DNA from: Candidatus Tectimicrobiota bacterium
GTDB taxonomy: Bacteria; JACPSX01
DNA: 46,969 nucleotides
Direction of reading: 5' to 3'
NCBI GenBank assembly: GCA_016193065.1
Contig: JACPSX010000094.1
Location: 1-46,969 of the forward strand
Shown here: positions 35,453 to 40,955 of the stretch, piece after piece
Layout: each line of letters opens with the position of its first letter
Numbering within the stretch: position 1 is the first letter of the stretch
Notes under the pieces: model-generated
What the model saw: only the letters and a program-made list of their open reading frames with translations
What the model was told of the DNA's origin: nothing
Databases searched by the model: none
Position numbers and translations under genes: made by a program

Positions 35453-35817
35453 GGCGGATTCCCCCTCAGCGAAGGCTTTGTAAGAAATAATCATACCAGC
35501 CGGACTCGCCCACGGCTACCCTTTGATTTGCTGCTATCGAGGACTGCAAAACGAAAGTCCCATGCACTCCGGGACGCTCAAGGACACCCCCTCACCTTTA
35601 TCCTCTCCCTCTTGTAAGGGGAGAGGAAGGATTTAAATTCCCTCTCTTGGGGGAGAGGGCAGGGTGAGGGGGAAGCACTGAAGTGCATGGATGGGACATT
35701 ACAAATGCAGCAATATCTCCCTTACTTGTTGTCAGTTCTGATCCGTAGCGAGATAGGATGTCAGTTCTGATCCGTAGCGAGATAGGATGGGTTATCGTTC
35801 TTCCCCAACGGATGCTC
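35453..35817. repeat. 365-bp gap with REP-like inverted repeat and 29-bp tandem repeat
   Basis: No gene seen. CCCCCTCACC (35587-35596) and GGTGAGGGGG (35663-35672) bracket a purine/pyrimidine segment with further CTCTCCC/GGGAGAG pairs, another copy of the dispersed family. Then TCAGTTCTGATCCGTAGCGA followed by GATAGGATG (29 bases) is repeated exactly twice in tandem, 35732-35760 and 35761-35789, ending 28 bases beyond the TPR gene's stop. Confidence 0.75.
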
Positions 35818-37869
35818 TCATCGCCGGGCCTTGCCTCGTGTGGCTTTCTTCCGTTGCAGCCCGCGCTGTCTTTGTTGTGGCAAAGCTTTCCGGGCTCTTT
35901 CTGTTGAAGGGGGATGAGTGGGAGGAGCGATACCCATGGCTCTGAAAAGGCGCTCTGCTTCGGCTCTGTACCTGTTCGCTTCGTCCTCGCGTTTCAGATC
36001 ACGCGCCACGAGAGCAAGGGCGTCGAGGGTGCGAGCTTCATTTAAGACGTCGCCGAATTGACGGAAAGCGACTAATGCCTCATGAAAGAGGGCCTCGGCC
36101 TGGGCGACCTCTCCCAGGTCACGTTGGAGGTCTGCAAGCAGCAAGAGTGCTACGGCCTCACTCCGAACGTCGCCCATGCGGCGGAAGATAGTCAAGACTT
36201 TGCGAAAAGCGGTTTCGGCACTGGAGAGATTTCCCCGGTCGTGGTCAAGAGCAGCGATCTCTCCCATAGTGATTGCTTCACTCCGGGTGTCACCAAGGCG
36301 GCGGTACATGTTCAGGGAATCTCGGAGTGCTTCTTCAGCTTCTGCAAAATCTCCTTGCTCGCGGAAGAGGGTCCCAAGCTGTACGAGTGTGCTGGCCTCA
36401 GCTTGAAGATCGGTGATCCGGCGGGAGCCTATGAGGGCCTTCTGGAGGGAATCCTTCGCTTTTGCCAGGTCTCCTCGGGTTCGGTAGAGGGAGCCCAGGT
36501 CGTTCAGGGTGAGCGCTTCGCTCGGAGCATCATGAAGATGGCGGAAGGTAGCAAGAGCTTCTTGGAGAGCAGTTTCAGCGCGTGAGAAGTCTCCGCGGTC
36601 GCGGTAGAGCAAGCCAAGAAAATGCAGAGTGCTCGCTTCATTGCGGGGATCGTGGATCACTCGGAAGATCGCAAGAGCTTCCTGGAGGGCGGTCTCTGCT
36701 CGGGACAGATCCCCTTGGATGCGATAGAGAGAGCCGAGGTCTTGGAGGGAAATCGCTTCATTTCGGGGATCGTAGATTTCTCGAAAGACCGCAAGAGCTT
36801 CTTGTAGGGTGGTCTCTGCGCGGGACAAATCTCCGCGGAGCCGATAGAAGCGACTGAGTTCGGTCAAAGTGGTCGCCTGACCGTGGCGATTATGGAGATG
36901 GCGGAAGATAGTGAGTGCATCCTGCAAGGCGGATTCGGCCTGTGAGGGACCGCCCTTGTCTTGATAAATGGTGCCAAGGTCCCGGAGAGCAGTGGCCTTC
37001 TTCAGGGCATCTCCAATGCGCTCGAAATTGCTAAGAGCCTCCCGGAGCGCAGTTTTGCTCTCTTCCGGCCGCCCCGCCAAATAATGAAGATGACCGAGGT
37101 TCAGGAGGAGTTCTCCTTGAACCGATAACCACTCTGGACCGACTTTGTCTCTAGTCTCGTCGAGAGCTTTTGCGAGGATATTACTGGCCTCCTCTATTTC
37201 ACCCCGCTCAAGCAAGCCCGCGGCTAAATTAATTCTGGCTATGGCGATCCCCAAATGGTCGTCAGGTCGAAGCTGCTCGTAGCGTTGAAGCACCTCACGC
37301 CGCTCCTGGACGAGACGATCGAGGTTCTGGGCATCCAAGAGAGCCTCCCGTCCTGCCATCTCCTTGGCGATCCTTGCCTGAAGATCGGCTTCATGGCGAA
37401 AGGTCCAGTGGCCGCTTCGGACTGCCCAGAAGTCTCCTGCTTTCCAGAACAGTTCCTGCTCGACAATTTCATCGAGCCAGAAGAGCAGCCGGAGACGGTT
37501 TGTAGTGAAGAAGTCTCTGCTCAAGTTGAGTTGTAGGAGAGAGTGGGATAGTCCTTCGTGATCGCCGGCTTTCTCCTCTGAAACGATCTCGGATAGGCCG
37601 TCGATGAAGTAGATCGGCGGGGAAGCGCTGAGAGTGGCCAGATGTTCTCGGAGTCTCGCGGCCAGGTCTCGCTCCCCCTCGGTCAGGTTGATTGTCGTTA
37701 CCGGATGATCCCGGCCGAGTTGCTCCTGAATTCCCTTCTCGACTGATTCGCGGGCGTGAGGACCGGAGCAGTCCACGAAGAGAACGCAGCCCATACCCGC
37801 AGTATGTTTGAGGAGCATTGCAATCTCCTCGATCTGCAACTGGTCTTTCACCGTCAAGGAAAGAATCAT
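35818..37869 (-). CDS. TPR-repeat protein with P-loop-less NTPase-like head and basic tail
   Basis: 683 residues from ATG 37869. Residues 1-165 look like an NTPase-type alpha/beta domain without a P-loop: MGCVLFVDCSGPHARESVEK, PPIYFIDGLSEIV (Walker-B-like strand), then FFTTNRLRLLFWLDEIVEQELF and FWAVRSGHWTF. About eleven 40-residue TPR units follow to ~640, the best being SLYRTRGDLAKAKDSLQKAL and LYRDRGDFSRAETALQEALA; units 3-5 are nearly identical, suggesting recent expansion. The last 30 residues are strongly basic (QQRQRGLQRKKATRGKARR). ATG overlaps the ATPase stop by four bases. A STAND-like signalling or defence role is inference only. Confidence 0.75.
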   Translation of the reverse strand: MILSLTVKDQLQIEEIAMLLKHTAGMGCVLFVDCSGPHARESVEKGIQEQLGRDHPVTTINLTEGERDLAARLREHLATLSASPPIYFIDGLSEIVSEEKAGDHEGLSHSLLQLNLSRDFFTTNRLRLLFWLDEIVEQELFWKAGDFWAVRSGHWTFRHEADLQARIAKEMAGREALLDAQNLDRLVQERREVLQRYEQLRPDDHLGIAIARINLAAGLLERGEIEEASNILAKALDETRDKVGPEWLSVQGELLLNLGHLHYLAGRPEESKTALREALSNFERIGDALKKATALRDLGTIYQDKGGPSQAESALQDALTIFRHLHNRHGQATTLTELSRFYRLRGDLSRAETTLQEALAVFREIYDPRNEAISLQDLGSLYRIQGDLSRAETALQEALAIFRVIHDPRNEASTLHFLGLLYRDRGDFSRAETALQEALATFRHLHDAPSEALTLNDLGSLYRTRGDLAKAKDSLQKALIGSRRITDLQAEASTLVQLGTLFREQGDFAEAEEALRDSLNMYRRLGDTRSEAITMGEIAALDHDRGNLSSAETAFRKVLTIFRRMGDVRSEAVALLLLADLQRDLGEVAQAEALFHEALVAFRQFGDVLNEARTLDALALVARDLKREDEANRYRAEAERLFRAMGIAPPTHPPSTERARKALPQQRQRGLQRKKATRGKARR

Positions 37870-39104
37870 CGGCGCTTCCGCCCTGTCCTGACCCCCCGCG
37901 CGGTCTTGTGGGTTGGTTTCCGAAGCTTCTTGAGCTTGGCGTCGAGAAGGGGTTTCACCAGCGGGTGAACGGCGACCCACTGTTCGTCGTTCAGGTATTC
38001 CAGGATCGCGAGGGCGTGAATCAGGTCCAGTTCAACCTGAGTGCTTCCTGCGGCCTTCCTTTCTGCGACCTTTGCGAGGGTCTCGAAGTGCTCATTGGTG
38101 AGGAAGCGGTTGTACTGGTTCCTGATCTCCGCCAGGCTCTGGTCCACGTCAGGTCCCAGGATGCGGTTGCCACCTCTGGTGAGCGCTATGGTGCAGGCTG
38201 ACCGCATGACTCGCATGAGATCCCGCGTGACGCCGCCCGAGTTCACAATGGCCTTCTCAAGATGGGCGGAGTCGATGAGAGCCGGGTCAATTCGTTTTGC
38301 GACCGTCTCCGACAGGTGGCGGATCGTTCTTGTGTGCTTCTGGCCTTCACGGGTGAGCACGTGAAAGTTTGGAAGAGTATAAGAGGTTCCGATGGAGGCA
38401 ATTGTCCCAGGGAACTCGTGGGAGCAGTACAGGGCGATCGGCAAGGTATAGATGATCTTACATCTTGGCTGGGTGAGGACCGAAGCGTTCTCGACGAAGA
38501 GATTTCGGCCTGTGGAAAATGGCGCCTTCTCGATGTCGTCAATGATGATCAGGATATCTTTCTCGGGGAGCGCCAGGCGAATCTCGTCCAGGATGGTGTT
38601 GGTGATTTCCATGAGGTCGGTGAGGCGGGGCTCCAGAACCTCGCGCGCCTCTTTTTTGCTCTCTACTCCTCGCTGGAGTCGCCCCAAAACTCCGAGGAAG
38701 AAGGCGCTGAGCTTACCCTTGACCTCGACCTCCGCTTCCTCTTTGTCGATCTTTGTGATCTGGATCGTGTTTCGCCAGGTATTGAGACGGTCGATGAGGT
38801 TTTCGGAGGGGTGGATTCCTTCATCGAAGGCCCGTGTGTACGTCTGGGCGGCGACGGAAAATAGGAGGTCGATGAACCTGACATCGTTCGGGTCGAGGAC
38901 TTCAAAGACCGAGTATTTCACAACGAGGAACTTGTTCAGGATCTCGGGATCAGCGGCCAAACGGTTTAGCTCGGTGGACTTCCCACACCCCCTGTGGCCT
39001 GTGAAGAGGATCTTCTCCCTGGCCTGGCTGGTGAGAAATTCGATCTTGATGCGCTGGAAGGGGTTTCCCTCCCGGTCGGTGTAAAAGCTCGGGTCCCGGC
39101 CCAC
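37866..39104 (-). CDS. P-loop ATPase coupled to TPR partner
   Basis: 412 residues from GTG 39104 (GGAGG nine bases upstream; TTG 39131 is the alternative). The Walker A motif GHRGCGKSTELNRL is near residue 36, and a Walker B ILIIIDDIEKA near 190, followed by an arginine-rich sensor-like part and RDLMRVMRSACTIA. The C-terminal half is helical, and the last 25 residues are basic (KLKKLRKPTHKTARGVRTGR). An N-terminal SFYTDREGNPFQRIKIEFLT precedes the P-loop. It resembles AAA/STAND-type ATPases that pair with sensor proteins. Overlap ATGA with the TPR gene suggests a two-protein complex. Biological role unknown. Confidence 0.75.
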   Translation of the reverse strand: MGRDPSFYTDREGNPFQRIKIEFLTSQAREKILFTGHRGCGKSTELNRLAADPEILNKFLVVKYSVFEVLDPNDVRFIDLLFSVAAQTYTRAFDEGIHPSENLIDRLNTWRNTIQITKIDKEEAEVEVKGKLSAFFLGVLGRLQRGVESKKEAREVLEPRLTDLMEITNTILDEIRLALPEKDILIIIDDIEKAPFSTGRNLFVENASVLTQPRCKIIYTLPIALYCSHEFPGTIASIGTSYTLPNFHVLTREGQKHTRTIRHLSETVAKRIDPALIDSAHLEKAIVNSGGVTRDLMRVMRSACTIALTRGGNRILGPDVDQSLAEIRNQYNRFLTNEHFETLAKVAERKAAGSTQVELDLIHALAILEYLNDEQWVAVHPLVKPLLDAKLKKLRKPTHKTARGVRTGRKRR

Positions 39105-39215
39105 TCCTGATGTCCTCCGGGCTTGAAGCAATTACAGTATATCATGGTTCCCCAAGCGCCCAGGAGGAAGGAAATTGTTTTTGGCTGCGTTCAGGGATTC
39201 GGCCCTTGTGGAGAG

Positions 39216-40211
39216 CTACTCGAGCCAGCCGATGGTCTTGCTGCTGCTCCCCACGAACCAGACGCGGCCGCCGGCGTCGGCGGCCATCTTGCGGATGGCG
39301 GTATTGGCGGAGGGGAGGGCGAGAGTCTCGAACCGCTCGGTGCGCGGGTCGAACCGGATCACGGTGTTGGCGGAAATCTCGTTGTAGACGATCCGCCCCT
39401 GCCCGTCCACGGCGATGGCATACGGTCCGCTGTCCGGTCCCGACACCGGAGGATATTCGGTGATCTTTCCCGTCGCCGGGTCCAGCTTTCCCAGCCCGCC
39501 GCGGCGGTACTGGGTGAACCAGACCGTGCCGTCCGGGCCGATGGCGACGCGGCGGGGCCCGGAGCGCCGGGTGGGCGGTGCATACTCTGTGATTTTCCCC
39601 GTGGCTGGGTCCAGACGGCCGACCTTGTGTCCGGACAGTTCGGCGAACCAAACCGTTCCCCCCTGGTCAACGGCGATCCCGTACGGTCCCGAGCCTCGGG
39701 TTGGGATGGGGTACTCGGTCACTTTGCCGGTCCGGCGCTCCACCTTGCCGATCTTCCCGCTTCGTTGCATTGTGAACCACAGGTTGTCCTGCGGGTCGAG
39801 GACGGGCGTGTGGGGACCGTTGCCGGGGGAGGGGATCGGGTAGCTGCTGAGATCTCCCGTCTTGGGGTTCAGCCGGCTGATCCGGTTGCCGCCCATCGCC
39901 GTGATCCAGAGGTTTCCGTCCCGATCGGCGACGATGCCGTGCGGCTGGGAGCCTTCGGGCAGATTGTAGGAACGGAAGCTCTTGGTCGTGGGGTCCATGC
40001 GAACAACCAGGTCGCTGTTCATGGCCACAAAATACACGGCCCCGTCGGCGGAGGGAGCCGGGTCCCGAGGATACGAGACGGAGATACTGATAGGAAACTC
40101 CCGAACCTGGAAAGCCGCCGTCTGAGGGAGAGGACTCACGGAAAGAATGAGGACCAAAAAGCTCAGTACTGTTCCGACTTTTCGATACACTGAAATCATC
40201 AACTTACCCAT
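39216..40211 (-). CDS. Secreted beta-propeller, Vgb/SMP-30-like (virginiamycin B lyase family)
   Basis: 331 residues from ATG 40211. The signal peptide is MGKLMISVYRKVGTVLSFLV then LILSVSPLPQTAAFQV. The rest is six to seven repeats of a blade pattern: GTVWFAELSGHKVGRLDPAT, GKITEYAPPTRRSGPRRVAI, and GTVWFTQYRRGGLGKLDPAT, typical of NHL-like Vgb propellers. Named after a streptogramin-inactivating lyase, but most family members are of unknown function and no resistance should be read from this. An upstream ATG at 40310 overlaps the HEPN stop (TGATG), so a longer, coupled form is possible. Confidence 0.75.
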   Translation of the reverse strand: MGKLMISVYRKVGTVLSFLVLILSVSPLPQTAAFQVREFPISISVSYPRDPAPSADGAVYFVAMNSDLVVRMDPTTKSFRSYNLPEGSQPHGIVADRDGNLWITAMGGNRISRLNPKTGDLSSYPIPSPGNGPHTPVLDPQDNLWFTMQRSGKIGKVERRTGKVTEYPIPTRGSGPYGIAVDQGGTVWFAELSGHKVGRLDPATGKITEYAPPTRRSGPRRVAIGPDGTVWFTQYRRGGLGKLDPATGKITEYPPVSGPDSGPYAIAVDGQGRIVYNEISANTVIRFDPRTERFETLALPSANTAIRKMAADAGGRVWFVGSSSKTIGWLE

Positions 40212-40309
40212 CCGGGCCGAGAGGACAGACGGGTAGATTTTCCGTTCTTCCTCGATCGAAGGGACAGACAGGCGGGAGTTGACGATGTGTTGGTTGATCG
40301 TCGGCATCA

Positions 40310-40657
40310 TCAGGCTTCCTTTGGTGGGACAACTCGCTCCAGTTCGGTGATGATTTCTGGGAGTTCCTTGGTTACAGTCTGCCACAGGATGTCGAAGTCC
40401 ACGAAGTCGTACCCGTGGATGAGTCGGTTCCTCATGCCTACAATTTGTGCCCAGGGGATTTGTGGGTGCTGAACCTGTGCCTTTTTTGATATGCGACTGG
40501 CTGCCTCGCCCACGATCTCGATGAGCCGAACCAATGCCAGTTGAAGAAGCCGCGATGTGTCCAGGTCGGGGCGGGTCTTGCCCTGTATAAGAGAGACGGC
40601 CTCCCGGGCATGATCAAGCATGTGGCGCATACGGATCAGGTCTTCATGACTCGACAT
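40310..40657 (-). CDS. HEPN-family (DUF86) toxin
   Basis: 115 residues from ATG 40657. It is an all-helical HEPN domain of the DUF86 type: MRHMLDHAREAVSLIQGKTR, RLLQLALVRLIEIVGEAASR, and the nuclease motif Rx4H in GMRNRLIHGYDFVDFDILWQ. HEPN toxins of this kind cut RNA and are silenced by a partner nucleotidyltransferase that can modify the tyrosine after the motif (here HGYD). The gene starts inside the last 14 bases of the nucleotidyltransferase gene, the usual MNT-HEPN order. Both motifs are intact. Confidence 0.87.
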   Translation of the reverse strand: MSSHEDLIRMRHMLDHAREAVSLIQGKTRPDLDTSRLLQLALVRLIEIVGEAASRISKKAQVQHPQIPWAQIVGMRNRLIHGYDFVDFDILWQTVTKELPEIITELERVVPPKEA

Positions 40658-40955
40658 ATTGCACCTGAGCTTGCGACAGAACATCGTCTCGGAAATACCG
40701 GCCGAGGCACTTGGGAGTGTTTATGTCTACGTTCCGCCCGCCGAGGAGACCGGACAGTTCGATTTCCATGCCCGCCAGGCGAATCAGCCCTGGCACATGT
40801 TCGGATTCAAACTCCACTAGCACATCCACGTCGCTGTCCGGCCGGAAATCGTCGCGCAGGACCGAGCCGAAGAACGACAGCTTGCGGATATGGTTGCGAC
40901 GGCAAAACTCAGCGATCTTTTCAGTGGGAATTTCGATCTGAACCTTGCCGTTCAT
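40644..40955 (-). CDS. MNT-family minimal nucleotidyltransferase (antitoxin of HEPN pair)
   Basis: 103 residues. The polymerase-beta-type active site is FFGSVLRDDFRPDSDVDVLV: the GSxxR motif, then SDxD with two metal-binding aspartates. The C-terminus (MEIELSGLLGGRNVDINTPK) includes the third acidic strand. In characterised pairs MNT adds AMP to the HEPN toxin at the conserved tyrosine and so blocks it. It lies upstream of, and overlaps, the HEPN gene. Confidence 0.88.
   Translation of the reverse strand: MNGKVQIEIPTEKIAEFCRRNHIRKLSFFGSVLRDDFRPDSDVDVLVEFESEHVPGLIRLAGMEIELSGLLGGRNVDINTPKCLGRYFRDDVLSQAQVQYVES

Follow-up and report, generated by a model that had tools for sequence, protein, structure and literature searches.

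The nearest published concept to the gene pair described here is the nSTAND2 two-gene system (PMC8195603). This mobile operon, called bacterial, encodes a pair of STAND NTPases whose relatives are the CR-ATPases, Dap3 and RNA12. The NTP motifs of one of them are eroded, and this protein is fused to variable modules, mostly GT4 or HEPN; an arginine finger is reported in both proteins and a hetero-oligomer has been proposed. The BREX systems have an inactive STAND of their own, BrxB, described as compact and devoid of both Walker motifs and a helical bundle (PMC12839542). In the MoxR-vWA ternary systems, a dead STAND module (iSTAND, PF19995) has been proposed as a sensor beside an active AAA+ protein (Kaur et al. 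2020, PMC7159879). What the inactive STAND modules do in BREX and in the ternary conflict systems has so far only been proposed. We have analysed two adjacent genes, coding for an ATPase and for a protein with tetratricopeptide repeats (TPRs), on the contig JACPSX010000094.1 of a Candidatus Tectimicrobiota bacterium (assembly GCA_016193065.1); the window denotes this whole stretch of 46,969 nucleotides. An earlier note, made from the sequence of the window, had presented the pair as a candidate undescribed system. The word "undescribed" holds only partly, given that an operon of active plus inactive NTPases was published in 2021 (nSTAND2, PMC8195603) and that inactive STANDs of the BrxB type are on record for BREX (PMC12839542). 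Nevertheless, no family name was found for the pair, and both proteins fall outside the specific curated families. The pair is probably a module for sensing or defence that is widespread and as yet uncharacterised.

Both genes lie on the minus strand and overlap by the motif ATGA (37866-37869), in which the ATG of gene 2 overlaps the TGA of gene 1, as the earlier note had reported; the two genes are likely to be translationally coupled. Gene 1 (37866-39104, 412 amino acids) begins with a GTG codon, with a GGAGG Shine-Dalgarno sequence about 9 nucleotides upstream; the longer alternative start is an in-frame TTG at 39131, nine codons earlier. Gene 2 (35818-37869, 683 amino acids) encodes an N-terminal head without P-loop, followed by eleven TPR units. 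The GC content of the pair is about 0.57, below that of the flanks (0.60-0.65).

Gene 1 is predicted to encode an active AAA+ ATPase that belongs to the ORC/Cdc6-TnsC-STAND superclade. The Walker A motif GHRGCGKST (38973-38999) and the Walker B motif IIIDDIEK (38526-38549) are both present, as had been claimed. The ATPase was compared with 64 relatives, which are loci selected with the peptide GCGKSTEL; the conservation of this peptide in 64/64 sequences is therefore inflated. The positions D189 and E192 of Walker B are acidic in all 64 sequences, the sensor-1 threonine is kept in 62 and the sensor-2 arginine R294 in 59. The AlphaFold model (mean predicted local distance difference test, pLDDT, of 92.8) contains an AAA+ core, a helical lid and then a winged helix with two C-terminal strands (residues 367-370 and 376-379). 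The signature of this winged helix, Tyr370, Trp376 and Pro381, is conserved at each position in 64/64 sequences. Residues 1-396 of the model align to TnsC, archaeal Cdc6/Orc1, CED-4 and the NRC4 resistosome with Z scores of 14-16. Against curated families, gene 1 gave only sub-threshold matches to AAA_22, AAA_14, KAP, AAA_16 and similar models. The NCBIfam family NF047389 (P-loop ATPase Sll1717 family) weakly matches 36 of the 64 ATPases (best value 5e-11), and the window ATPase scores 23.8 bits, below the cut-off of 75. Weak matches were also obtained to Pfam DAP3 in five ATPases and to the NCBIfam model of DefensePredictor DS-41 in four, a system that is reported from Halobacteria. No PADLOC model matched the window ATPase at E <= 0.001, the nearest being mad8 at 0.002. 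A sequence search of the PDB with the ATPase and the head gave no meaningful match; a hit at 6.8e-06, to a designed repeat protein, is probably spurious.

The head of gene 2 (residues 1-165, 37375-37869) is modelled as a compact five-stranded AAA+ core (pLDDT 88.4) without Walker motifs and without lid, with one long helix at the expected start of the lid. Structural matches of the head include TnsC (Z 13.0), ORC2 (Z 11.8), RFC and NSF; the best 50 structural rows are all AAA+, and the top Foldseek match is the delta chain of a delta-beta complex. The earlier note had described an NTPase-like head devoid of P-loop, with a Walker-B-like strand YFIDGLSE. The absence of a P-loop stands, since none occurs at the expected place in 70 heads. 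The strand does occupy the Walker B position, but the column is acidic in only 11 of the 70 heads, so that it is Walker-B-like by position only. A Pfam scan of the 70 heads detected no recurrent family. In profile-profile alignments with hhalign, the head profile aligned over its full length with that of seven BrxB proteins, after cleaning of the set, at 63% probability (pairwise P 7e-5), which makes BrxB its best relative by this approach; unrelated neighbouring families did not exceed 1.5%, and the NACHT region taken from relatives gave 0.25%. With the partner ATPase the value was 9.6%, a weak relation as far as sequence profiles go. A row at 94% corresponds to a TPR-gene cluster that includes head-bearing paralogues, and a value of 96% for BrxB, obtained with an altered correlation weight, was discarded as uncalibrated. 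No head matched PF08747 (BrxB) or PF19995 (iSTAND) at E 0.01, although the PF08747 model has matches in 8 of 145 genomes in the same setting; the head is therefore at best a remote relative and not a member of these families. From these models and profiles, the head appears to be an AAA+ core that lost ATP binding and the lid and that is distantly related to BrxB.

The comparison with BrxB (BrxB/BrxF, PF08747) thus reveals a common compact five-stranded AAA+ core, with no Walker motifs and no C-terminal helical bundle. BrxB, too, acts together with an ATPase of the ORC/Cdc6 clade (BrxC). The two differ in their context: BrxC has 1200 amino acids, whereas the partner of the head is a 410-amino acid ATPase, and the head is fused to TPR, WD40 or STAND arms and has no PF08747 match by hmmscan. 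No BREX genes (PglZ, methylase, BrxC, BrxL) were found among the scanned genes beside the pair. The iSTAND systems differ by their requirement for MoxR and vWA genes, neither of which lies beside the pair in the window. Identity with iSTAND through PF19995 was rejected for want of any head match, and the PF19995 matches of one genome (G046) lie elsewhere than its heads. In a distant homolog on a plasmid of Nostoc C057, the ATPase forms the C-terminal half of a protein annotated as SAV_2336 N-terminal-related (L009:4288-7212). This protein adjoins a MoxR ATPase, which links the ATPase to conflict neighbourhoods of the MoxR type.

The remainder of gene 2 is composed of exactly eleven TPR units of 40 residues (35950-37254), where about eleven had been announced; they start at about residue 206, in a register read by eye. 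Pfam TPR_12 matches gene 2 at 1e-65, and the scans with Pfam, NCBIfam and PADLOC recovered only generic TPR and TPR-containing models. The TPR region contains a 120-bp DNA repeat (2.6 copies) that is still 75% matched, which suggests a recent duplication of repeats.

A profile scan with one genome per species confirmed at least 554 relatives, distributed among roughly a dozen phyla of bacteria and archaea, and 80 loci were fetched. Among them, archaea are represented by methanogens, methanotrophs and Altarchaeota. The bacterial loci belong to Chloroflexi, Cyanobacteria, Sericytochromatia, Bacteroidota, Chlorobi, Proteobacteria, Acidobacteria, Aminicenantes, Latescibacterota, Armatimonadetes, Planctomycetes and Lachnospiraceae. 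Although the pair is thus common, also in methane-oxidising and methanogenic archaea, Pfam contains no model for the head. A head-bearing gene lies immediately downstream of the ATPase in 84 of the 90 loci with room for it, so that the association is more than chance; the commonest spacing is the 4-nucleotide overlap, the 8-nucleotide overlap being also frequent. A tblastn search of plasmids with the ATPase detected eight cyanobacterial homologs, mostly followed by a large head-bearing TPR or WD40 gene, twice with a 4-nucleotide overlap. In unselected genomes the two genes also occur together. Among 241 broadly sampled genomes, the ATPase was found in three and the head in the same three plus one other. 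Among 59 cyanobacteria, 16 possess the ATPase and all 16 possess heads, which are present in 17 genomes (Fisher p 1.5e-13, ignoring phylogeny). In these cyanobacteria, 49 of 54 ATPases have a head within 1.2 kb downstream.

The two families also vary together. The distance matrices of ATPases and heads are correlated (Mantel r 0.75, the largest value of 2000 permutations being 0.13), and the nearest neighbour of an ATPase is among the top three neighbours of its head in 50 of 64 cases, against 3 expected. In Calothrix and in a second cyanobacterium (G261), two tandem ATPases, of which the second is a TIR-fused paralogue, precede a single gene that carries two heads in tandem (L010:5869-13146 and L123:1871-9171). 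This matched doubling is the most direct hint in the sequences that one head serves one ATPase. Taken with the adjacency, the co-occurrence and the P-loop-less AAA+ head, this co-variation makes the claim of an active ATPase with a degenerate NTPase partner very likely right, and we hold it highly probable that the two proteins form a physical complex. One could imagine instead that the operon is shared for expression only, that the two proteins form no complex, and that gene 2 is a TPR scaffold whose head is an unrelated domain of Rossmann-like type. The 9.6% obtained between head and ATPase profiles and the absence of a Pfam family for the head would agree with this. The AAA+ folds at the top of the structural matches, the alignment with BrxB, the joint changes in copy number and the correlated distances all speak against it, and we regard it as very improbable.

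A more serious alternative is that the pair is simply nSTAND2 (Kaur et al. 2021); it would then belong to a published two-gene conflict system directed against invaders. The layout is the same: a two-gene operon with two STAND/AAA+ modules, of which the one with eroded NTP-binding motifs carries a variable arm; the weak DAP3 matches of five ATPases point in the same direction. The differences, judged by the published description, concern the arms, the distribution and the two modules themselves. TPR_12 is found in 63 of the 68 shorter second genes and neither GT4 nor HEPN is among the 25 commonest families. Many members are archaeal, whereas nSTAND2 is described as bacterial. The head has no lid and is closer to BrxB, and the arginine at the finger position, as assigned by topology, appears to be kept only on the side of the head (55/70, against 29/64 for the best column of the ATPase). 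No nSTAND2 model appears among the Pfam matches of the ATPases and heads. With these differences, membership in nSTAND2 seems unlikely.

In AAA+ rings, the arginine finger lies where the helix that connects strands 4 and 5 ends, and in the clamp loader it is supplied by delta'. At this position, assigned by topology only, the head displays Arg151 (37417-37419) in the signature APDFWxxR, with Arg or Lys in 55 of 70 heads. A second arginine, Arg118 in the motif LNxxRD, is more conserved, with Arg or Lys in 63 of 70. In the ATPase, the best Arg/Lys column between strands 4 and 5 reaches 29 of 64 sequences. Because it is the head and not the ATPase that appears to keep an arginine at the finger position, we propose a composite, sensor-gated ATPase. 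The two genes would form one complex, a split switch of the STAND/ORC type. Gene 1 would be the engine, an active ATPase with sensor 1, sensor 2 and winged helix, and gene 2 would bring the sensor arm and, with the head, the adaptor. The head could dock on the nucleotide face of the ATPase like a neighbouring ring subunit and offer the arginine (Arg151, perhaps Arg118) that the ATPase seems to lack at that position, by analogy with delta'. The arm behind the head would gate this composite site, and ATP turnover or ring assembly would then depend on what the TPR superhelix binds. The clamp-loader subunits delta and delta' are likewise P-loop-less AAA+ cores beside active ATPases, but their function and sequence are unrelated, and the analogy is mechanistic only.

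This split switch, taken as a whole, appears to us rather probable. For the gating by an arginine in trans the chances look even, and a gating of the ATPase by a TPR ligand would follow from the same scheme. The full version, in which a BrxB-like adaptor with pluggable arms supplies the arginine and so completes an ORC/STAND ATPase in trans, as a "split NLR" (from nucleotide-binding leucine-rich repeat receptor), is put forward as a working proposal that falls somewhat short of probable. If the composite site exists, it would give inactive STAND modules a mechanism open to testing, and would offer a small system of two proteins for studying the control of an ATPase by a repeat sensor.

Several observations weigh against the split switch or its use in defence. 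Arg151 is missing in the cyanobacterial WD40 branch, in which WGTS replaces WxxR, so that an arginine in trans is not universal at that residue. The AlphaFold models are those of single chains, and the sequence relation between head and partner ATPase is weak (the 9.6% above). In cyanobacteria, 27 of 76 head matches are orphans without adjacent ATPase; these could rely on an ATPase in trans. Searches of viral contigs and phage records gave no homolog, which leaves a phage-borne origin unsupported. The window includes no output domain, its neighbouring genes are mainly metabolic, and no third gene recurs as an effector among relatives outside Anaerolineae. Concerning the orphan heads, two are found in G046 (L110:5167-5805 and L111:4856-6874), one of them beside genes resembling RuBisCO genes.

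The relatives display a larger variety of arms and outputs than the studied locus. Besides the TPRs, the arms behind the head include WD40 with nSTAND1, NB-ARC (L040, L059 and L086) and NACHT (L078). In Chloroflexi, second genes with the order head, NACHT, TPR, cyclic-nucleotide-binding domain and class III nucleotidyl cyclase (L043, L045, L057, L076, L079, L080 and the truncated L056) could represent an output of the family. The TIR domain of the ATPase paralogue was detected in Calothrix with Pfam TIR_2 (1.5e-33) and in G261 by eye. The statement that no known effector is visible is thus true of the studied locus and does not extend to its relatives, where TIR, NACHT, cyclic-nucleotide-binding and nucleotidyl cyclase domains are candidates. 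From the variety of arms and neighbours we deduce that the constant core is composed of the ATPase and the head, all else being exchangeable. The STAND proteins of the Avs, bacterial NACHT and MalT types share with the pair an ATPase with winged helix, TPR or WD40 arms and, in some, TIR or other outputs. Contrary to these NLR-like proteins, the ATPase and the sensor are here on separate polypeptides, connected via a dead AAA+ adaptor, and no N-terminal effector is present.

In Anaerolineae, the pair belongs to an operon that comprises a head-TPR gene, a seven-transmembrane (7TM)-PAS histidine kinase, LuxR response regulators, an MraZ-like gene, the ATPase, a head-TPR gene and further TPR genes. 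Its gene content varies among the loci (L025-L028, L030, L032-L034, L036-L038 and L073), with a response regulator in up to 18 loci, the MraZ-like gene in 15 and the kinase in 13; no published description of this operon was found in the literature searched. A eukaryotic-like secretion system or an extracellular contractile injection system had been suspected from the gene sizes, and this was rejected because the genes are a kinase, response regulators and an MraZ-like gene.

The exchangeable arms fit both conflict systems and general signalling. The pair could therefore be a housekeeping-type signal-transduction or transcription-coupled switch, which passes a cellular signal to a regulator and has no part in defence. 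The Anaerolineae operon is in line with this, as are the nucleotidyl-cyclase and cyclic-nucleotide-binding arms of other Chloroflexi, the absence of a PADLOC match for the window ATPase and the presence of up to seven ATPase copies per cyanobacterial genome. Conversely, the patchy distribution (3 of 241 broad genomes) and the carriage on plasmids better suit accessory conflict systems. The TIR-fused paralogue, the NB-ARC, TIR, NACHT or toxin-antitoxin neighbours and the lower GC content of the window pair also argue against a housekeeping function, which we consider possible, albeit on the doubtful side. A defence role is plausible, although a guess, and a mainly anti-invader role is a fair question to which our answer leans to the negative. 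The candidate TIR or nucleotidyl cyclase outputs in relatives indicate that the split switch most likely drives signalling of the immune or stress type.

The basic tails, which the earlier note had placed among the defining characters of the pair, are present on both proteins, each with a net charge of +11 over the last 25 residues (37869-37943 for the ATPase and 35821-35895 for gene 2), whereas the other listed genes of the window reach at most +4. They are not kept in relatives: tails at +9 or more are found in 1 of 87 ATPases and 1 of 68 second genes, and tails at +5 or more in 3 of 87 and 4 of 68, the window pair being counted. The ATPase of the nearest searched relative (G136) ends before the tail region starts. 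The tails were consequently rejected as a family trait and are private to the studied genome. Matching tails on two independent genes could, as a speculation, provide a shared tether to a polyanion in the studied lineage only.

Directly upstream of the ATPase is a gene of the virginiamycin B lyase family coding for a beta-propeller (39216-40385, minus strand). It matches Vgb_lyase at 1.4e-101 and scores below the cut-offs of the resistance-enzyme models. A toxin-antitoxin pair composed of an MntA/HepT-like nucleotidyltransferase and a HepT-like protein (40310-40955, minus strand) lies two genes upstream of the ATPase; it scores above the Pfam cut-offs and below the NCBIfam equivalog cut-offs. 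Promoter and terminator scans were at or below chance. Just downstream of gene 2, a perfect 29-bp tandem repeat (2.1 copies, 35730-35789) is followed, around 35590-35675, by an imperfect palindromic element, CCCCTCACCCTG...AGGTGAGGGG; together they are possibly a repeat or a mobile-element scar.

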